Shown here: one piece after another, positions 46,494 through 50,999 of the stretch
Layout: each line of letters begins with the position of its first letter
How positions within the stretch are numbered: the first letter of the stretch is position 1
Assembly (NCBI GenBank): GCA_017510725.1
Contig: JAFWMD010000061.1
Location: 1 to 50,999, forward strand
Direction: 5' to 3'
Source: Mogibacterium sp.
GTDB lineage: Bacteria > Bacillota > Clostridia > Peptostreptococcales > Anaerovoracaceae
Length of the DNA: 50,999 nucleotides
Made by a program: the position numbers and the translations under genes
The notes under the pieces: generated by a model
Database searches by the model: none
What the model was told of the DNA's origin: nothing
The model's input: the letters and a program-made list of their open reading frames with translations, nothing else

Positions 46494-46847
46494 ATGACAA
46501 ACAGGCAAAGGAATCTCGGGATCAACATCAGAGTGACCCCGGAAGAAAAGAAAAAGATAGAACGTAACGCAAGAAAATGCAGACTGAATGTCTCAGAATA
46601 CCTCAGGCAGATCGCTATGAAAGTCGTGCCTAAGGAACTTCCCGCAAAAGAAATTGAAGATAGTTTTCTCAGAATCAATGAAGTGATCAGGACTGTTAGC
46701 GACTTGAAGCGACAGTCACCGGATCCCGTCACCCAGAAATTCTGTGATGAGATCTATGCAGATCTGCTCAGGATCATGGTCGAGACACTGCAGCTTATGC
46801 GGCATATTTATCCAAAGCCGGAGGTGAAATCAGATGGCAACGACTAA
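46494..46847 (+). CDS. mobC: MobC-like relaxosome accessory protein
   Basis: 117 residues from the ATG at 46494 (MTNRQRNLGINIRVTPEEKK) behind AGGA at 8 nt. A ribbon-helix-helix-like N-terminus (INIRVTPEEKKKIERNARKCRLNVSEYLRQ) is followed by a helical tail, as in MobC proteins that open oriT for the relaxase. Longer upstream readings cover the oriT-like repeats and lack a ribosome-binding site. It overlaps mobA by 14 bases. Confidence 0.8.
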   Translation: MTNRQRNLGINIRVTPEEKKKIERNARKCRLNVSEYLRQIAMKVVPKELPAKEIEDSFLRINEVIRTVSDLKRQSPDPVTQKFCDEIYADLLRIMVETLQLMRHIYPKPEVKSDGND

Positions 46848-48207
46848 AATATGGCCTGTCAGAGACAGCCTTAAGCGTGTCGTTGATTATGCATCCAACC
46901 CTGAAAAAACATCAGAAGATGATCTTGCTTCTGTCATCAGGTACGCTATGAATGGAGATAAAACAATCGCAGATACTACAGAGAAAACCGAAAAAGCATG
47001 TTATGTCACGGGTGTGAATTGCTCTGCAGATACAGCACTCGAGGAGATGATCAATACTCAGATGCTTTTCGGAAAGACCGGTGGCAATGTCGCCTATCAC
47101 TGTTACCAGTCATTCAGGCCGGGCGAAGTAACGCCTGAGCAATGTCATCAGCTTGGAGTAGAACTCGCACGCAGGATGTGGGGAGACAAATACCAGGTGC
47201 TGGTCGCTACCCATCTGGATCGTGATCATCTGCACAACCACCTTGTATGTTGTTCAGTCTCATTCATAGATGGGAAGAAATTCAATGATAATAAGGCTGC
47301 ATACAGCAGACTGCGCAGATTATCTGATGAGATATGTCGTGAGGAAGGCCTTTCTGTTATAGAAAAACCGCGCGGGAAAACTCCGAGGCAGATCCACTTT
47401 GCCGAGAAGAACGGAGAGCCTACCAGATACAATCTGATGCGTGAAGCCATAGATAATGCTGTTTCACTCAGTACCAATTTCCCTACTTTCATCAGTCTGA
47501 TGAAGCAGCAGGGATATATCATCAGCTACAGTTATGCAAGGAAGTATCCGACAATCAGATCTGTAAATTCTCAGAAGGCCGTAAGGCTTTACCGGCTTGG
47601 CGAAGATTATGAGCTCGATAGGATCGCTCAGAGAGTCAATGACAATCATTACGAAACTGTAGCAGCTAATCGCGAAAGACATATCATGTCCATGAAGCCT
47701 CCGAAGCATAAACGCGTCCATGTCAATGGTACGAAGAAGACAGCGCGAAAGATCGGAGGACTTTACGGACTTTATCTTCATTATCTGTATCTGCTCGGAT
47801 ACCGCCCGAAGAAAAAGCACCGGCCGCTGTCACCTGAGATGCGTGAGGCCGGCCGGATGTGTGATAAGTACTCCGCCTGCGCTATGCTTATGGCACGGGA
47901 ACATCTCAGAACGGATGAAGATGTGAACACTTTCATATCTGATTCAAAACATAAAATGGAATATCTTTCCGAAGCCAGAAACAAGGTAAGAAACAAACTG
48001 AGGCGAGCTTCAGAGCCTGAGCAGATAGAACAATTGAAGGCTGAAAGAGACAGGCTTACTGCAGAGATCGGTAAGCTGCGTAAGGATATCAAAACTGCTG
48101 AATTTACACTTGAGCGAAGTCAGCAGGTACAAAAGGACATAGAAATAGAACTCAATGCCTGCGGAATTATCCGCAGCAGAAATCACAGAGATCGAGACGG
48201 GAGGTGA
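46834..48207 (+). CDS. mobA: MobA-type relaxase
   Basis: Nicks oriT and pilots the strand into the recipient. 457 residues. The metal-binding three-histidine motif is in ATHLDRDHLHNHLV (His127, 132, 134, 136). An upstream tyrosine in the N-terminal region (YASNPEKTSED, about Tyr19) could be the nucleophile. The C-terminus after 370 is a long coiled coil (EQIEQLKAERDRLTAEIGKL). It matches the MOBP-like relaxases of gut-Firmicutes mobilizable elements, which lack a helicase or primase domain. The decayed copy at 41314 derives from a relative. Confidence 0.88.
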   Translation: MATTKIWPVRDSLKRVVDYASNPEKTSEDDLASVIRYAMNGDKTIADTTEKTEKACYVTGVNCSADTALEEMINTQMLFGKTGGNVAYHCYQSFRPGEVTPEQCHQLGVELARRMWGDKYQVLVATHLDRDHLHNHLVCCSVSFIDGKKFNDNKAAYSRLRRLSDEICREEGLSVIEKPRGKTPRQIHFAEKNGEPTRYNLMREAIDNAVSLSTNFPTFISLMKQQGYIISYSYARKYPTIRSVNSQKAVRLYRLGEDYELDRIAQRVNDNHYETVAANRERHIMSMKPPKHKRVHVNGTKKTARKIGGLYGLYLHYLYLLGYRPKKKHRPLSPEMREAGRMCDKYSACAMLMAREHLRTDEDVNTFISDSKHKMEYLSEARNKVRNKLRRASEPEQIEQLKAERDRLTAEIGKLRKDIKTAEFTLERSQQVQKDIEIELNACGIIRSRNHRDRDGR

Positions 48208-48267: not shown

Positions 48268-49605
48268 ATGACTGACAGCAAGAAAGAATTCCTGCTGAAG
48301 GCATCAGCACCTTCTGACGCTGAAGTACTGGAATTCATCACTAGTTGCCCGGACGAATGTTTACAATTCAGAAATGATGATGGTAGTATAAGTCTGGACG
48401 GCGTGAAAGAATATATGAGAAAAGCACGCAAGAACAAGATCCTTGACAATTACAGAGGACAGATAAAAAAGCTTAACGGCAAGGACCAGCGATACTATAT
48501 CAAGTTAAAGGATAGCAGCCGCAGTGACGGCAGATATACCATCAAGGCACCTACCGAAGAAGAACTGCTTGAGAAAGTGTTTCTGTGGCATCTTGAGAAC
48601 GTTGAAAAGATCAAAGAGCCTACACTTGCCAGCATTTTCCCCGAGTTTCTTGAGTACAAGAAGAAAACGACATGGAGCGAGTCCACTGCCAAAAGGAATC
48701 TGTCAGTATGGAAGAATCACTACAAAGATACTGATATCATCAATGTTCCTATAAGAAAGATCAGACTGAAGCAGCTTCAGGAGTGGGCATATGGTCTGAT
48801 CAAAGATCATGACCTGACCCAGAAGGAATTCGGTAATATCGCCACATGGATGAAGCAGATGTTTGAATATGCTGCCATGGAGGAGATCATTGACAGAAAC
48901 CCTTACACGATGCTCAAGATCACCAACCGTAATGTATTCCGTCAGCCGGAGATCAAGTCGGACGAGAACAAAGTTCTCTCGCCAGATATGGAACTTGCAC
49001 TCTATAAGAAGTGCTGGGAACACTTCGAAAACAGCTACTACCCGGTTCATCAGCTCCTGCCGCTTGGCATAATAATGCTGTTTCAGGCAGGTCTCAGACC
49101 AAGTGAGCTCGCTACTCTGCGGTATTCTGACATTGATGGTGATGAGATCATCATCAGGAGGTATTACTCAGATAAGGCGAATGTCATCAGGGAAAACCGC
49201 ACCAAAGCCGGTCACGGCTTCAGGCGGATCATCCTGACTTCACTGGCCAAAGAGATAATTGAAGCTGCGAGACAAAGGCAGCTGGAAGAAGGTATTGAAA
49301 ACCCTGAATATATCTTCATGATGAACGATCGCTTCAAGAGTTTTTATGACAGACTCCGCAAGACATTTCCTGTCATCTGTAAGAGCATAGGAATCCCGCA
49401 AAACACTCCGTATTCTGGCCGGAGAACGTTCATTTCATCGCTTATTGACGCGAATGTGAACATCAGGACCATACAGAATTATGTTGGTCACAATGACGCC
49501 AGAACTACTCTAAACAATTACTGTTATGACAGATCTGCACGGGAAGAAAGAGCCAGACAGCTTGAAAATGCTCGTGTTCAGATCTCTTTCACCGGGGCAG
49601 CATAG
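48268..49605 (+). CDS. int: Tyrosine recombinase (element integrase)
   Basis: 445 residues; integrates and excises the element. SAM-like core-binding domain about 115-220 (EFLEYKKKTTWSESTAKRNL). The catalytic domain has Arg277 (AGLRPSELATLR), Lys313, Arg385 (YSGRRTF), His408 (VGHNDARTTL) and the nucleophile tyrosine in NNYCY (418 or 420). The usual His of box II (HxxR) is a Tyr here (YSGR). ATG behind AGGAGG. It is the last gene before the right att, the normal place for an integrase acting on its own end. Confidence 0.93.
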   Translation: MTDSKKEFLLKASAPSDAEVLEFITSCPDECLQFRNDDGSISLDGVKEYMRKARKNKILDNYRGQIKKLNGKDQRYYIKLKDSSRSDGRYTIKAPTEEELLEKVFLWHLENVEKIKEPTLASIFPEFLEYKKKTTWSESTAKRNLSVWKNHYKDTDIINVPIRKIRLKQLQEWAYGLIKDHDLTQKEFGNIATWMKQMFEYAAMEEIIDRNPYTMLKITNRNVFRQPEIKSDENKVLSPDMELALYKKCWEHFENSYYPVHQLLPLGIIMLFQAGLRPSELATLRYSDIDGDEIIIRRYYSDKANVIRENRTKAGHGFRRIILTSLAKEIIEAARQRQLEEGIENPEYIFMMNDRFKSFYDRLRKTFPVICKSIGIPQNTPYSGRRTFISSLIDANVNIRTIQNYVGHNDARTTLNNYCYDRSAREERARQLENARVQISFTGAA

Positions 49606-49689: not shown

Positions 49690-49805
49690 TAAAAAATTGA
49701 ACGTGTATCCCTTGCAATTACTGCGTTTCAGAGATCTGTTTTTCCGTCAGCCCCATACCCGGACCCAACTGATTAATAATGTACTTGCTTAATGCAGCAA
49801 GATTT

Positions 49806-50459
49806 TCACTCATCATCGACTTTATTGTCAGTGAATGCCTTTATTACATCTTCAGATAATAGTTTTTTAATTCTGTTAGGTATAACAAAGCTTCTGTATT
49901 TTTCGTTCCTTGTCTTATGAACCATCGCATCATAAAGTGGCTGCGTATGCTGTTTTTTGAAGATGGCAACAATTGGGCGTTTCTTAGTGACAAGATCTCC
50001 GATATCTCCGCTTCTTGTAGTGTTCGGAAAGAAATAACCTTTAGAACTACGCAGTACGCCAAGGCACGCGTAAACCCCTCCTACCAGCTTATCTGTCTGT
50101 AATACTGGCTGAGAATAATTGTAGTCACCAATAGTTCTTGCTGACATATCCTCTGCGAATAAATATTCAATTACATTAAGCTTGAGTTCTGCAAATCCGC
50201 TATCATCGAATTCAAAATCCGATTCTTTTAGTCTCTTCTTCAGACATAAGTCAAAGAACTGGTTTGAGTTTCCACCTTTCTTTGTGAACAAAAGTCCGGT
50301 CAAATGAAGGAAGCTTGCTTTATAGAATACAATCTCAATATAGTCAGGCTTTCTATTTTCATCAATATAAAGAACCAGATACTTATTGCCCAAAAAGTTC
50401 TGTTTATATAGCGTGGCCGCCTTAAACAGGGTGGCAAGGCATTCTTTCTTTGTAATCAT
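49806..50459 (-). CDS. PBECR4-domain-like protein, putative RNase toxin, 217 aa
   Basis: The sequence follows the PBECR4 pattern (phage-Barnase-EndoU-ColicinE5/D-RelE-like nuclease): NKYLVLYIDENRKPDYIEIVF, then KASFLHLTGLLFT, ELKLNVIEYLF, IGDYNYSQPVLQTDKLVGGV and GYFFPNTTRSGDIGDLV followed by PIVAIFKKQ. Catalytic residues cannot be pinned down by eye. ATG at 50459 behind GAGG. Immediately upstream in its own direction lie a Rho-independent terminator, two 52-nt direct repeats and a strong promoter, an arrangement known from type III toxin-antitoxin loci. The family call is from memory; toxin function is inference. Confidence 0.55.
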   Translation of the reverse strand: MITKKECLATLFKAATLYKQNFLGNKYLVLYIDENRKPDYIEIVFYKASFLHLTGLLFTKKGGNSNQFFDLCLKKRLKESDFEFDDSGFAELKLNVIEYLFAEDMSARTIGDYNYSQPVLQTDKLVGGVYACLGVLRSSKGYFFPNTTRSGDIGDLVTKKRPIVAIFKKQHTQPLYDAMVHKTRNEKYRSFVIPNRIKKLLSEDVIKAFTDNKVDDE

Positions 50460-50479
50460 TTCAAATACCTCATAACATA

Positions 50480-50519
50480 AAAGGGAGATTACAACACGAA
50501 TGTATCATAATCTCCCTTT
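50480..50519 (-). terminator. Terminator between the 52-nt repeats and the PBECR4-like gene
   Basis: Perfect 12-bp stem AAAGGGAGATTA (50480-50491) / TAATCTCCCTTT (50508-50519) with a 16-nt loop; the minus strand ends CCCTTTTATG. It lies 20 nt before the PBECR4-like start codon. In type III systems such a terminator sets the antitoxin-to-toxin ratio. Confidence 0.8.
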
Positions 50520-50532
50520 GTGACTAATTTTA

Positions 50533-50636
50533 TCGATGTCCGCCATCCTCAGGCCCTTGTGTCCTGCATCAGTTTCGGATTTTATCGTTGCCCGCCAACC
50601 TCAGGCCCTTATGTCCTGCATTAATTTCGGATTTTA
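50533..50636 (-). ncRNA. Two tandem 52-nt repeats, candidate RNA antitoxin
   Basis: Repeat A 50585-50636 and repeat B 50533-50584 (minus-strand order) are each 52 nt with 6 differences. A partial third copy (TAAAAT) follows B. Each can form a small hairpin (CAGG...CCTG with a 9-nt loop). They lie about 35 nt after a predicted transcription start and just before a terminator. No open reading frame of note crosses them. No spacers, so not CRISPR. Confidence 0.55.
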
Positions 50637-50677
50637 CGTGTTAGCCACACGGATGGAGATGTCCATCACCCAATATT

Positions 50678-50706
50678 CTTATACCATGACAACCTTCATT
50701 TGTCAA
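50678..50706 (-). promoter_or_regulatory. Strong promoter of the repeat-toxin unit
   Basis: On the minus strand TTGACA (50706-50701), exactly 17 bp, TATAAG (50683-50678). It fires into the 52-nt repeats and lies just after the terminator of the second integrase gene, so the unit is transcribed independently. Confidence 0.75.
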
Positions 50707-50731
50707 TTGCTGACTGCCATCCGATCAAACA

Positions 50732-50752
50732 AAATGACGGGTATTCCCCGCC
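50732..50752 (-). terminator. Terminator of the second integrase gene
   Basis: GACGGG (50736-50741) pairs with CCCGCC (50747-50752, one G-U) around a 5-nt loop; the minus strand continues ATTTTGTTTG. Confidence 0.55.
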
Positions 50753-50771
50753 ATTCACACTGCCTGAACGT

Positions 50772-50999
50772 TTACATCATATCCAGATGTGCATCGAATT
50801 TATTGATTGCATCGTTGTCCATCGACTTGAACACATCTGTGTATGTATCTAGTGTAACGTGTATGTCTGTATGACCAAGCCATGTCTTAAGGACTACAGC
50901 CGGAACTCCTGACTCAATACATCTCGTCGCGAATGTGTGTCTCAGTGCATGCTGCCCATCTGAAGTGATTCCAGCAATATTGCAGATCCTCTTATAATA
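50772..50999 (-). CDS. Second tyrosine recombinase, C-terminal part (5' end beyond window)
   Basis: 75 residues are visible. They include box II HALRHTFATRCIESGV (His and Arg present), then LGHTDIHVTLDTYTDVF with the histidine and the nucleophile tyrosine, ending in a short tail. The motif set is that of a standard phage/ICE-type integrase and differs from the YSGR variant of the first recombinase, so it belongs to another element extending to the right. The toxin-antitoxin-like unit lies directly beyond its 3' end. Confidence 0.9.
   Translation of the reverse strand, partial: YYKRICNIAGITSDGQHALRHTFATRCIESGVPAVVLKTWLGHTDIHVTLDTYTDVFKSMDNDAINKFDAHLDMM

Follow-up and report, generated by a model that had tools for sequence, protein, structure and literature searches.

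What kind of element lies on the minus strand at positions 49806–50706 of the 50,999-nucleotide stretch of Mogibacterium sp. contig JAFWMD010000061.1 (assembly GCA_017510725.1), hereafter the window? The initial annotation, made from the sequence alone, described a promoter, two 52-nt tandem repeats, a terminator, a ribosome-binding site and one open reading frame (ORF), all of which proved to be real, and read them as a further family of type III toxin–antitoxin systems. That reading is supported, in that the organization fits while ToxN homology, judged by sequence, does not. We put at about three in four the probability that this is a type III-like toxin–antitoxin system, the toxin of which would be a predicted RNase of the PBECR4 (BECR-class) rather than the ToxN family, and that some phages carry decoys of its RNA. 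The points counted in its favor are the PBECR4 match, a terminator rule, covariation of the RNA unit, pairing of a leader loop with the 3′ tail, a convergent RNA at one locus (L061), drum RNA upstream of the gene at six loci, single units in phages, the substitution pattern of the gene, and residue H52 together with a C-terminal S/T. The wider proposal, which we hold to be probable to a lesser degree, is that PBECR4 is the toxin of a sizeable, unrecognized type III-like family with several classes of RNA antitoxin, drum included, on enterococcal plasmids and phages of lactic acid bacteria, and that large, tRNA-rich phages captured single monomers of its RNA as dedicated decoys.

The ORF (49806–50459, minus strand) encodes 217 amino acid residues and was annotated as PBECR4-like; its product matches Pfam PBECR4 (PF18813) with an E value of 2.9e-24 and 86.9 bits, above the curated cut-off of 27. 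The same Pfam search revealed no ToxN, and hhalign gave a probability of 0.1 per cent for PBECR4 against a ToxN profile consisting of two sequences only, which agrees, by sequence, with the annotated dissimilarity to ToxN. H52 and G55 are invariant across 16 and across 20 aligned homologues, and inspection by eye shows the C-terminal proline region to be followed by S or T in all 20. The PBECR domains of phage polyvalent proteins are described as predicted BECR RNases with H and a C-terminal S/T (PMC5512222; this and the other papers cited by PMC number are drawn on in excerpt), a description that the pattern seen here fits. In four PBECR4 pairs the ratio of nonsynonymous to synonymous substitution (dN/dS) is 0.04–0.10 by a crude count. 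NCBIfam returned two matches for 10 proteins, far under the cut-off, and PHROGs only families of unknown function for 6 proteins.

PF18813 is uncommon, being found in 4 of 398 genomes of the phylum, 17 of 393 of the order and 14 of 349 of the family, sets which overlap. With the homologue from Streptococcus phage Javan100 as query, tblastn matched 91 of the 72,556 plasmid records, Enterococcus accounting for 76, and 13 of 50,697 phage records; the L011 and L020 proteins gave no phage match and the window protein no plasmid match. (Loci are referred to by our L numbers.) Scans of viral contigs found one relative with the Javan100 protein and none with the window, L009 or L011 proteins. The gene sits downstream of a lysin or amidase gene, a position where lysogeny cargo is usual, in Lactococcus phages D4840, phiLC3 and 50101 and in Latilactobacillus phage TMW 1.1447 P1. 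In PLgT-1 the gene is split into two ORFs. The 90-kb linear Erysipelothrix phage phi1605 (MF172979.1) has two similar PBECR4 regions near both ends (L026 and L034), each after a resIII-type helicase gene, with a shorter ORF in one copy. At L017 (G595:C15) the genome search matched PBECR4 to the beginning of a long ORF that resembles polyvalent proteins and has a terminator before it; when the entire ORF was submitted to hmmscan, ArdC-N, LPD25 and peptidase domains were reported, and PBECR4 was not among them.

The gene order around this protein comes close to a rule. The locus set comprised 31 non-redundant loci reached through the protein, each with upstream sequence, and ten reached through an RNA match (L049–L052, L076, L091, L092, L094, L096 and L097; L049 was also found by protein), 41 in all. 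Dropped from it were L008 (contig edge), L025 (fragment) and L064 (broken gene; kept in a count of 42 loci), and, as copies, L002, L003, L014, L037 (window), L015, L026, L048, L059, L062, L065 and L066. A terminator-like hairpin stands just upstream of PBECR4 in 37 of the 41 loci, compared with 26 of 123 comparison ORFs (p 1.9e-15), the latter being other ATG-started frames of 100+ amino acids in those loci and not annotated genes. Under a stricter terminator rule the counts are 28/42 and 18/125. The call is missing at L016, L034, L061 and L076, and at L034 a hairpin is visible by eye. UNCG-type loops (CTTCGG, CTACGG, CTGCGG) are frequent by eye in PBECR4 terminators (L009, L050, L091, L094 and L096). 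The initial annotation looked to homologues for tandem repeats followed by a terminator, and this held in part: the terminator is present in 28 of the 31 protein-first loci, whereas visible tandem repeats are not the rule for all homologues: of 19 distinct loci tested, only 6 have an exact-register repeat score higher than that of any shuffle. Other PBECR4 genes are preceded by drum RNA or by a stretch of no known class.

The RNA of the window is composed of units of a class that we call type A. Its layout is a hairpin A (the loop often ACAUAAGGG), a hairpin B (GNUG-gcrgr-CANC) and an A-rich tail. The alignment holds 34 units, 33 of them distinct, taken from clostridial genomes, phage Javan100, an Enterococcus plasmid and phage, viral contigs, Macrococcoides and Pediococcus plasmids and phage phi1605. 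In this alignment 96.8% of cells are paired, compared with 76.4 in shuffles, changes on both sides occur in 8 of 9 pairs (4.8 in shuffles), and versions of the structure slid along the unit reach at most 51.6%. The type A unit covaries strongly from Clostridia to Streptococcus and Enterococcus. Co-conservation of the repeat with the ORF, on which the initial annotation had staked its reading, is likewise found, the RNA accompanying PBECR4 across Bacillota. Two of the outcomes that would have refuted the initial reading, homologues that as a rule lack upstream repeats and terminators and repeats not conserved together with the ORF, were thus looked for and did not occur.

Being strongly structured and linked to a predicted nuclease, the repeat RNA could also be an activator or guide of the PBECR4 RNase, akin to a CRISPR RNA, in which case the phage copies would sabotage it as RNA anti-CRISPRs do, for which the solitary CRISPR repeats known as Racr provide a precedent (PMC10651486). 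Since there is no variable spacer, the units are conserved along their length, and a gene order in which a terminator sets the limit is the one known from RNA antitoxins, we regard such a role as very improbable.

A second structural feature joins the two ends of the RNA. In a set of 20 loci, a leader-hairpin loop can pair with the hexanucleotide that follows the last unit: 64 of 66 pairs form over 11 distinct combinations, and none of 20000 permutations scored as high, in a register chosen by eye; L086, the leader of which lies outside the slice, was left out. Of 200 shuffles at each of three loci, 4, 12 and 16 matched the streptococcal version of this helix (TAGTCGG/CCGACTA). Taken locus by locus, the pairing is not significant at L061, L057, L009, L013 and L036, and at L058 and L060 the best leader/tail pairing is a different one. 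This long-range pairing was found instead of the conserved pseudoknot within the unit that the initial annotation had envisaged, which could not be established. By eye a pseudoknot between the loop GGG and the linker is possible in some units and not in others; it was neither counted nor is it claimed.

Does the RNA act in trans or in cis? With the RNA upstream of the gene and a terminator between them in most loci, the RNA might be no antitoxin but a cis-acting leader, an attenuator through which read-through of the terminator sets the level of PBECR4 expression. Locus L061, Ligilactobacillus salivarius plasmid pCTN1046, speaks against this. There PBECR4 occupies second place in an operon that no RNA precedes, and two type A units (E 1.8e-7 and 0.0068) with a terminator-like hairpin lie downstream on the opposite strand, convergent with the gene; the RNA is therefore not the leader of the PBECR4 mRNA at that locus. 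Other complete RNAs with terminators have no PBECR4 after them, and phages without the gene carry single units. We consider the attenuator improbable. The streptococcal viral contig IMGVR_UViG_2548877064_000002 (L043/L052) holds a complete two-unit type A RNA, its own toxin being absent. This toxin-less RNA immediately precedes a second PBECR4 module, which has another, twice-repeated RNA motif (AGCTATCAAGATGGGTAGCGAGC), as if an old antidote had been retained.

The RNA beside PBECR4 is not of a single kind. Among the 31 protein-first loci we count 13 with type A RNA (the window, L009, L010, L012, L013, L034, L035, L036, L057, L058, L060, L061 and L063), one with a weak type A match (L054, E 9e-4), six with drum, ten unclassified and one (L016) without any RNA seen. 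The covariance model includes the units of L057 and L063, which were chosen by eye. Drum RNA (RF02958) lies directly upstream of PBECR4 in L005, L007, L011, L033 and the G740 and G674 loci, the L007 match scoring 43.0 bits, exactly the gathering score. The unclassified loci (L006, L017, L018, L019, L020, L022, L023, L053, L055 and L056) show, by eye, a stretch before the terminator; at L019 (G459:C22) it is a 33-nt unit repeated three times almost exactly, upstream of terminator and PBECR4 and unlike both type A and drum, which is perhaps a further RNA class. A search in the other direction found drum in four genomes of a set of 393 and in two of a set of 398, the two sets overlapping in part; in G740, G781, G674 and G029 it lies within ~70 nt before a PBECR4 match. 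The pattern scan of viral contigs gave four drum loci, repeat-like or coding-looking and none with PBECR4; that scan showed no phage drum decoy. Drum was reportedly described by Weinberg in 2017. The available passage of PMC7657543 covers its structure and gives no function, and none was found in the literature among the matches listed.

We judge the phage-borne single units, an addition to what the initial annotation proposed and lying outside the coordinates of the locus, to be the most interesting result. A scan of viral contigs with the RNA pattern found 10 loci: three with PBECR4 right after the RNA (L042, L046 and L047), three with a two-unit RNA and no PBECR4 of its own (L039, its copy L044, and L043), and four with a single unit (L038, L040, L041 and L045). 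Unit 1 of the window is present exactly in three of these four single-unit contigs, over 61, 52 and 52 nt, and with two substitutions in 52 in the fourth. Wider slices (L072–L075) place each unit inside a 13–14 kb region with 24–25 tRNA genes, and PF18813 was not found in these four contigs of 44–137 kb, which may be fragments. Between L072 and L073, megablast at E 1e-5 gave no match beyond exactly the 52-nt unit (96.2%); the shared part is therefore one repeat period. Phage copies of exactly one period may hint at a 52-nt monomer, or minimal antitoxin.

Two wider patterns matched 35 and 4 loci, 29 of them new; with an E limit of 0.5, the covariance model matched these 29 loci 33 times. The toxin-linked loci among them number six (L076, L091, L092, L094, L096 and L097). 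The rest include diverged units in large phages that have no PBECR4 with them and in some cases lie next to a tRNA or between two (L086, L095, L099 and L101), and PF18813 was found in none of seven contigs with diverged units. A tRNA lies within 1 kb of the toxin-less RNAs at 8 of 19 loci and of the toxin-linked RNAs at 0 of 9 (p 0.029), a comparison of slices of unequal length in which four of the eight were viewed in wider slices, and which omits L083 (E 0.0066, looks coding), matches above E 0.02 and the copies L098 and L044. The whole-contig search for PBECR4 covered 11 of the 19 toxin-less contigs only. Against the phage collection, blastn with the window RNA matched Javan100 only (E 0.03), and with the L100 unit nothing. 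The tRNA-rich regions of L072, L074 and L075 hold other recurring hairpin-like stretches beside the unit (e.g., GCGTGATTGAAACTGCACGC), perhaps further small RNAs.

Such units might be neutral passengers, captured by recombination, rather than decoys. Arrays of tRNA genes are generally known to be prone to recombination, such arrays house each of the four exact or near-exact copies, the L074 array includes a GIY-YIG-like ORF (read from the sequence), and three of the four regions are partly related (L072/L074 share 7222 nt by megablast, L074/L075 2537, L072/L075 2240, L073/L074 1233 and L073/L075 300). Yet each region has one unit with both stems intact, the two differences of L073 from the window both fall at unpaired positions, and diverged, still foldable units occur in further phages. 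Passenger status is, in our opinion, unlikely.

The analysis shows the sequence features themselves, their conservation and covariation, the linkage of RNA and gene, and the copies in phages. From these sequences we infer that the protein would be toxic, that the RNA would be processed and neutralize it, and that the phage copies could serve as decoys. Most transcripts would stop at the terminator, leaving the RNA in excess, and read-through would yield a small amount of mRNA for the toxin. The ~52-nt units, which the toxin may itself excise, would each fold into two hairpins and block the PBECR4 active site (H52 and the C-terminal S/T). Were a phage to halt host transcription, the RNA would decay and the freed RNase would arrest the cell, unless the phage, as some large ones may, made one unit, rarely more, from its tRNA array as a decoy keeping the toxin inhibited.

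Several observations weigh against the toxin–antitoxin reading. The unit structure was read off the very sequences on which it was tested, and further pair types were not above shuffles (13 vs 12.3). The minimum-energy fold of the single window RNA (z -3.5) is a rod of unit 1 against unit 2, not local hairpins. No sequence in the PDB matched the ORF, either as a single sequence or as a profile. Both RNA and terminator are missing at L016, a terminator 5′ of the gene is missing at L061, and two drum RNAs stand without PBECR4 (G069 and G733). Finally, a single pseudo-ToxI repeat of phage phiTE failed to neutralize ToxN in an over-expression assay (PMC3475682), and therefore one unit need not suffice. 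The G069 drum (L031, G069:C21, 1501–1609) scores 88 bits and is followed by a terminator and an unrelated-looking gene; that of G733 (L030, G733:C9, 1501–1599) scores 46.5 bits and looks decayed.

In the window itself, all on the minus strand, the −35 hexamer TTGACA (50701–50706) and the −10 hexamer TATAAG (50678–50683) are read from the sequence with a spacer of 17. The pair is absent from the list of the promoter scan because that scan demands T at the end of the −10; the scan found promoter-like sites no more frequent than in shuffles (4 vs 3.1). There follow leader hairpin 1 (GATGG/CCATC, 50652–50667; counterparts are seen by eye in relatives) and leader hairpin 2 (CGTGT-GGCTA-ACACG, 50637–50651), both read from the sequence; GGCTAA of the latter can pair with the 3′ tail TTAGTC (50522–50527), the partner identified by the loop/tail count. 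Unit 1, of 52 nt, spans 50573–50624, as indicated by Tandem Repeats Finder (TRF), covariation and the phage copies, with hairpin A at 50618-50615/50605-50602 and hairpin B at 50599-50596/50590-50587; unit 2 spans 50521–50572 (TRF). Hairpin B reads GTTG/CAAC in unit 1 and GATG/CATC in unit 2, a compensatory change. TRF reports the repeat at 50527–50636 with a period of 52, 2.1 copies and 89% matches, and the self-match score is 44.8, against a maximum of 12.0 in 40 dinucleotide shuffles. Between RNA and ORF the terminator scan places an intrinsic terminator (50480–50519) with a stem of 18 pairs, G–T allowed, the outer 12 of which are perfect, in accordance with the 12-bp terminator of the initial annotation. 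Three terminator-like sites occur in the 1.1 kb scanned, with 0.6 expected. The ribosome-binding site GAGG (50468–50471), read from the sequence, lies 8 nt 5′ of the ATG.

As had also been noted, the locus lies between phage-integrase genes, at 48268–49605 (plus strand) and 50772–50999 (minus strand), of the second of which only the C-terminal part is present, the contig ending there. To the left are a relaxase gene (46834–48207) and a NikA-like gene. The genome has the ORF once and the RNA once. The genome contig scan with the window protein found two copies, identical proteins in RUG321 and RUG11951, metagenome-assembled genomes of uncultured Clostridiales; we take RUG to stand for rumen genomes. 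PADLOC gave no match, and Rfam, searched over 49700–50999 up to E 10, gave four sub-threshold matches to other families, none over the units; the window RNA thus has no match to drum.

If this interpretation is correct, a BECR-class RNase would be added to type III-like systems, and the orphan RNA family drum would gain a partner and a testable function. Phages would possess natural one-unit decoys of an RNA antitoxin beyond the pseudo-ToxI of phiTE, parallel to RNA anti-CRISPRs, and phage tRNA arrays would also hold RNA counter-defence. The suggested 52-nt minimal antitoxin would make binding, structure and escape directly testable. The pair of PBECR4 and RNA was not found in the literature on type III systems, RNA antitoxins and phage mimics, among the matches listed. 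The name PBECR4 was not found in the literature searched, which excludes most subscription papers and all preprints; PBECR occurs in PMC5512222 and PMC9403866, and the available part of the former has no mention of an RNA antitoxin with PBECR. Unlike the PBECR domains of polyvalent proteins, most of those described here are encoded by genes that stand alone and are preceded by an RNA and a terminator.

Type III systems have been recognized by tandem repeats, a Rho-independent terminator and a ToxN homologue, arranged in that order (PMC5086642). The window has the terminator before the ORF and the tandem array before the terminator, and lacks ToxN homology by sequence. It shares with ToxIN/AbiQ, CptIN and TenpIN the order of repeats, terminator and toxin gene, and the repeat length is similar to those of TenpI and CptI (50 and 45 nt, 2.1 copies; PMC12373285); it differs from ToxIN, CptIN and TenpIN in its toxin, which is PBECR4, with no profile match to two ToxN sequences. 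In a ToxN control, in which three loci were found and two examined, repeats lay beside the gene in one and not in the other. RNA antitoxins for non-ToxN proteins are already known from AbiF/RCd22 and AvcID. In Clostridioides difficile AbiF/RCd22 an orphan Rfam RNA motif, in two copies and with a terminator, likewise precedes the gene, and this RNA neutralizes the protein directly (PMC12373285), but the protein is Abi_2/AbiF and the RNA RF03085, whereas here PBECR4 is accompanied by type A, drum or unclassified RNA. AvcID also combines an RNA antitoxin with a non-ToxN toxin, AvcD being a deoxycytidylate deaminase (PMC10511110). The phage units resemble the pseudo-ToxI of phiTE and the Racr repeats in being phage-borne copies of a defence RNA repeat (PMC3475682, PMC10651486). 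Wild-type phiTE carries 1.5 diverged repeats, which it must expand to escape (PMC3475682), whereas the units described here are exact or near-exact single copies, belong to another RNA family and lie in tRNA-rich regions.
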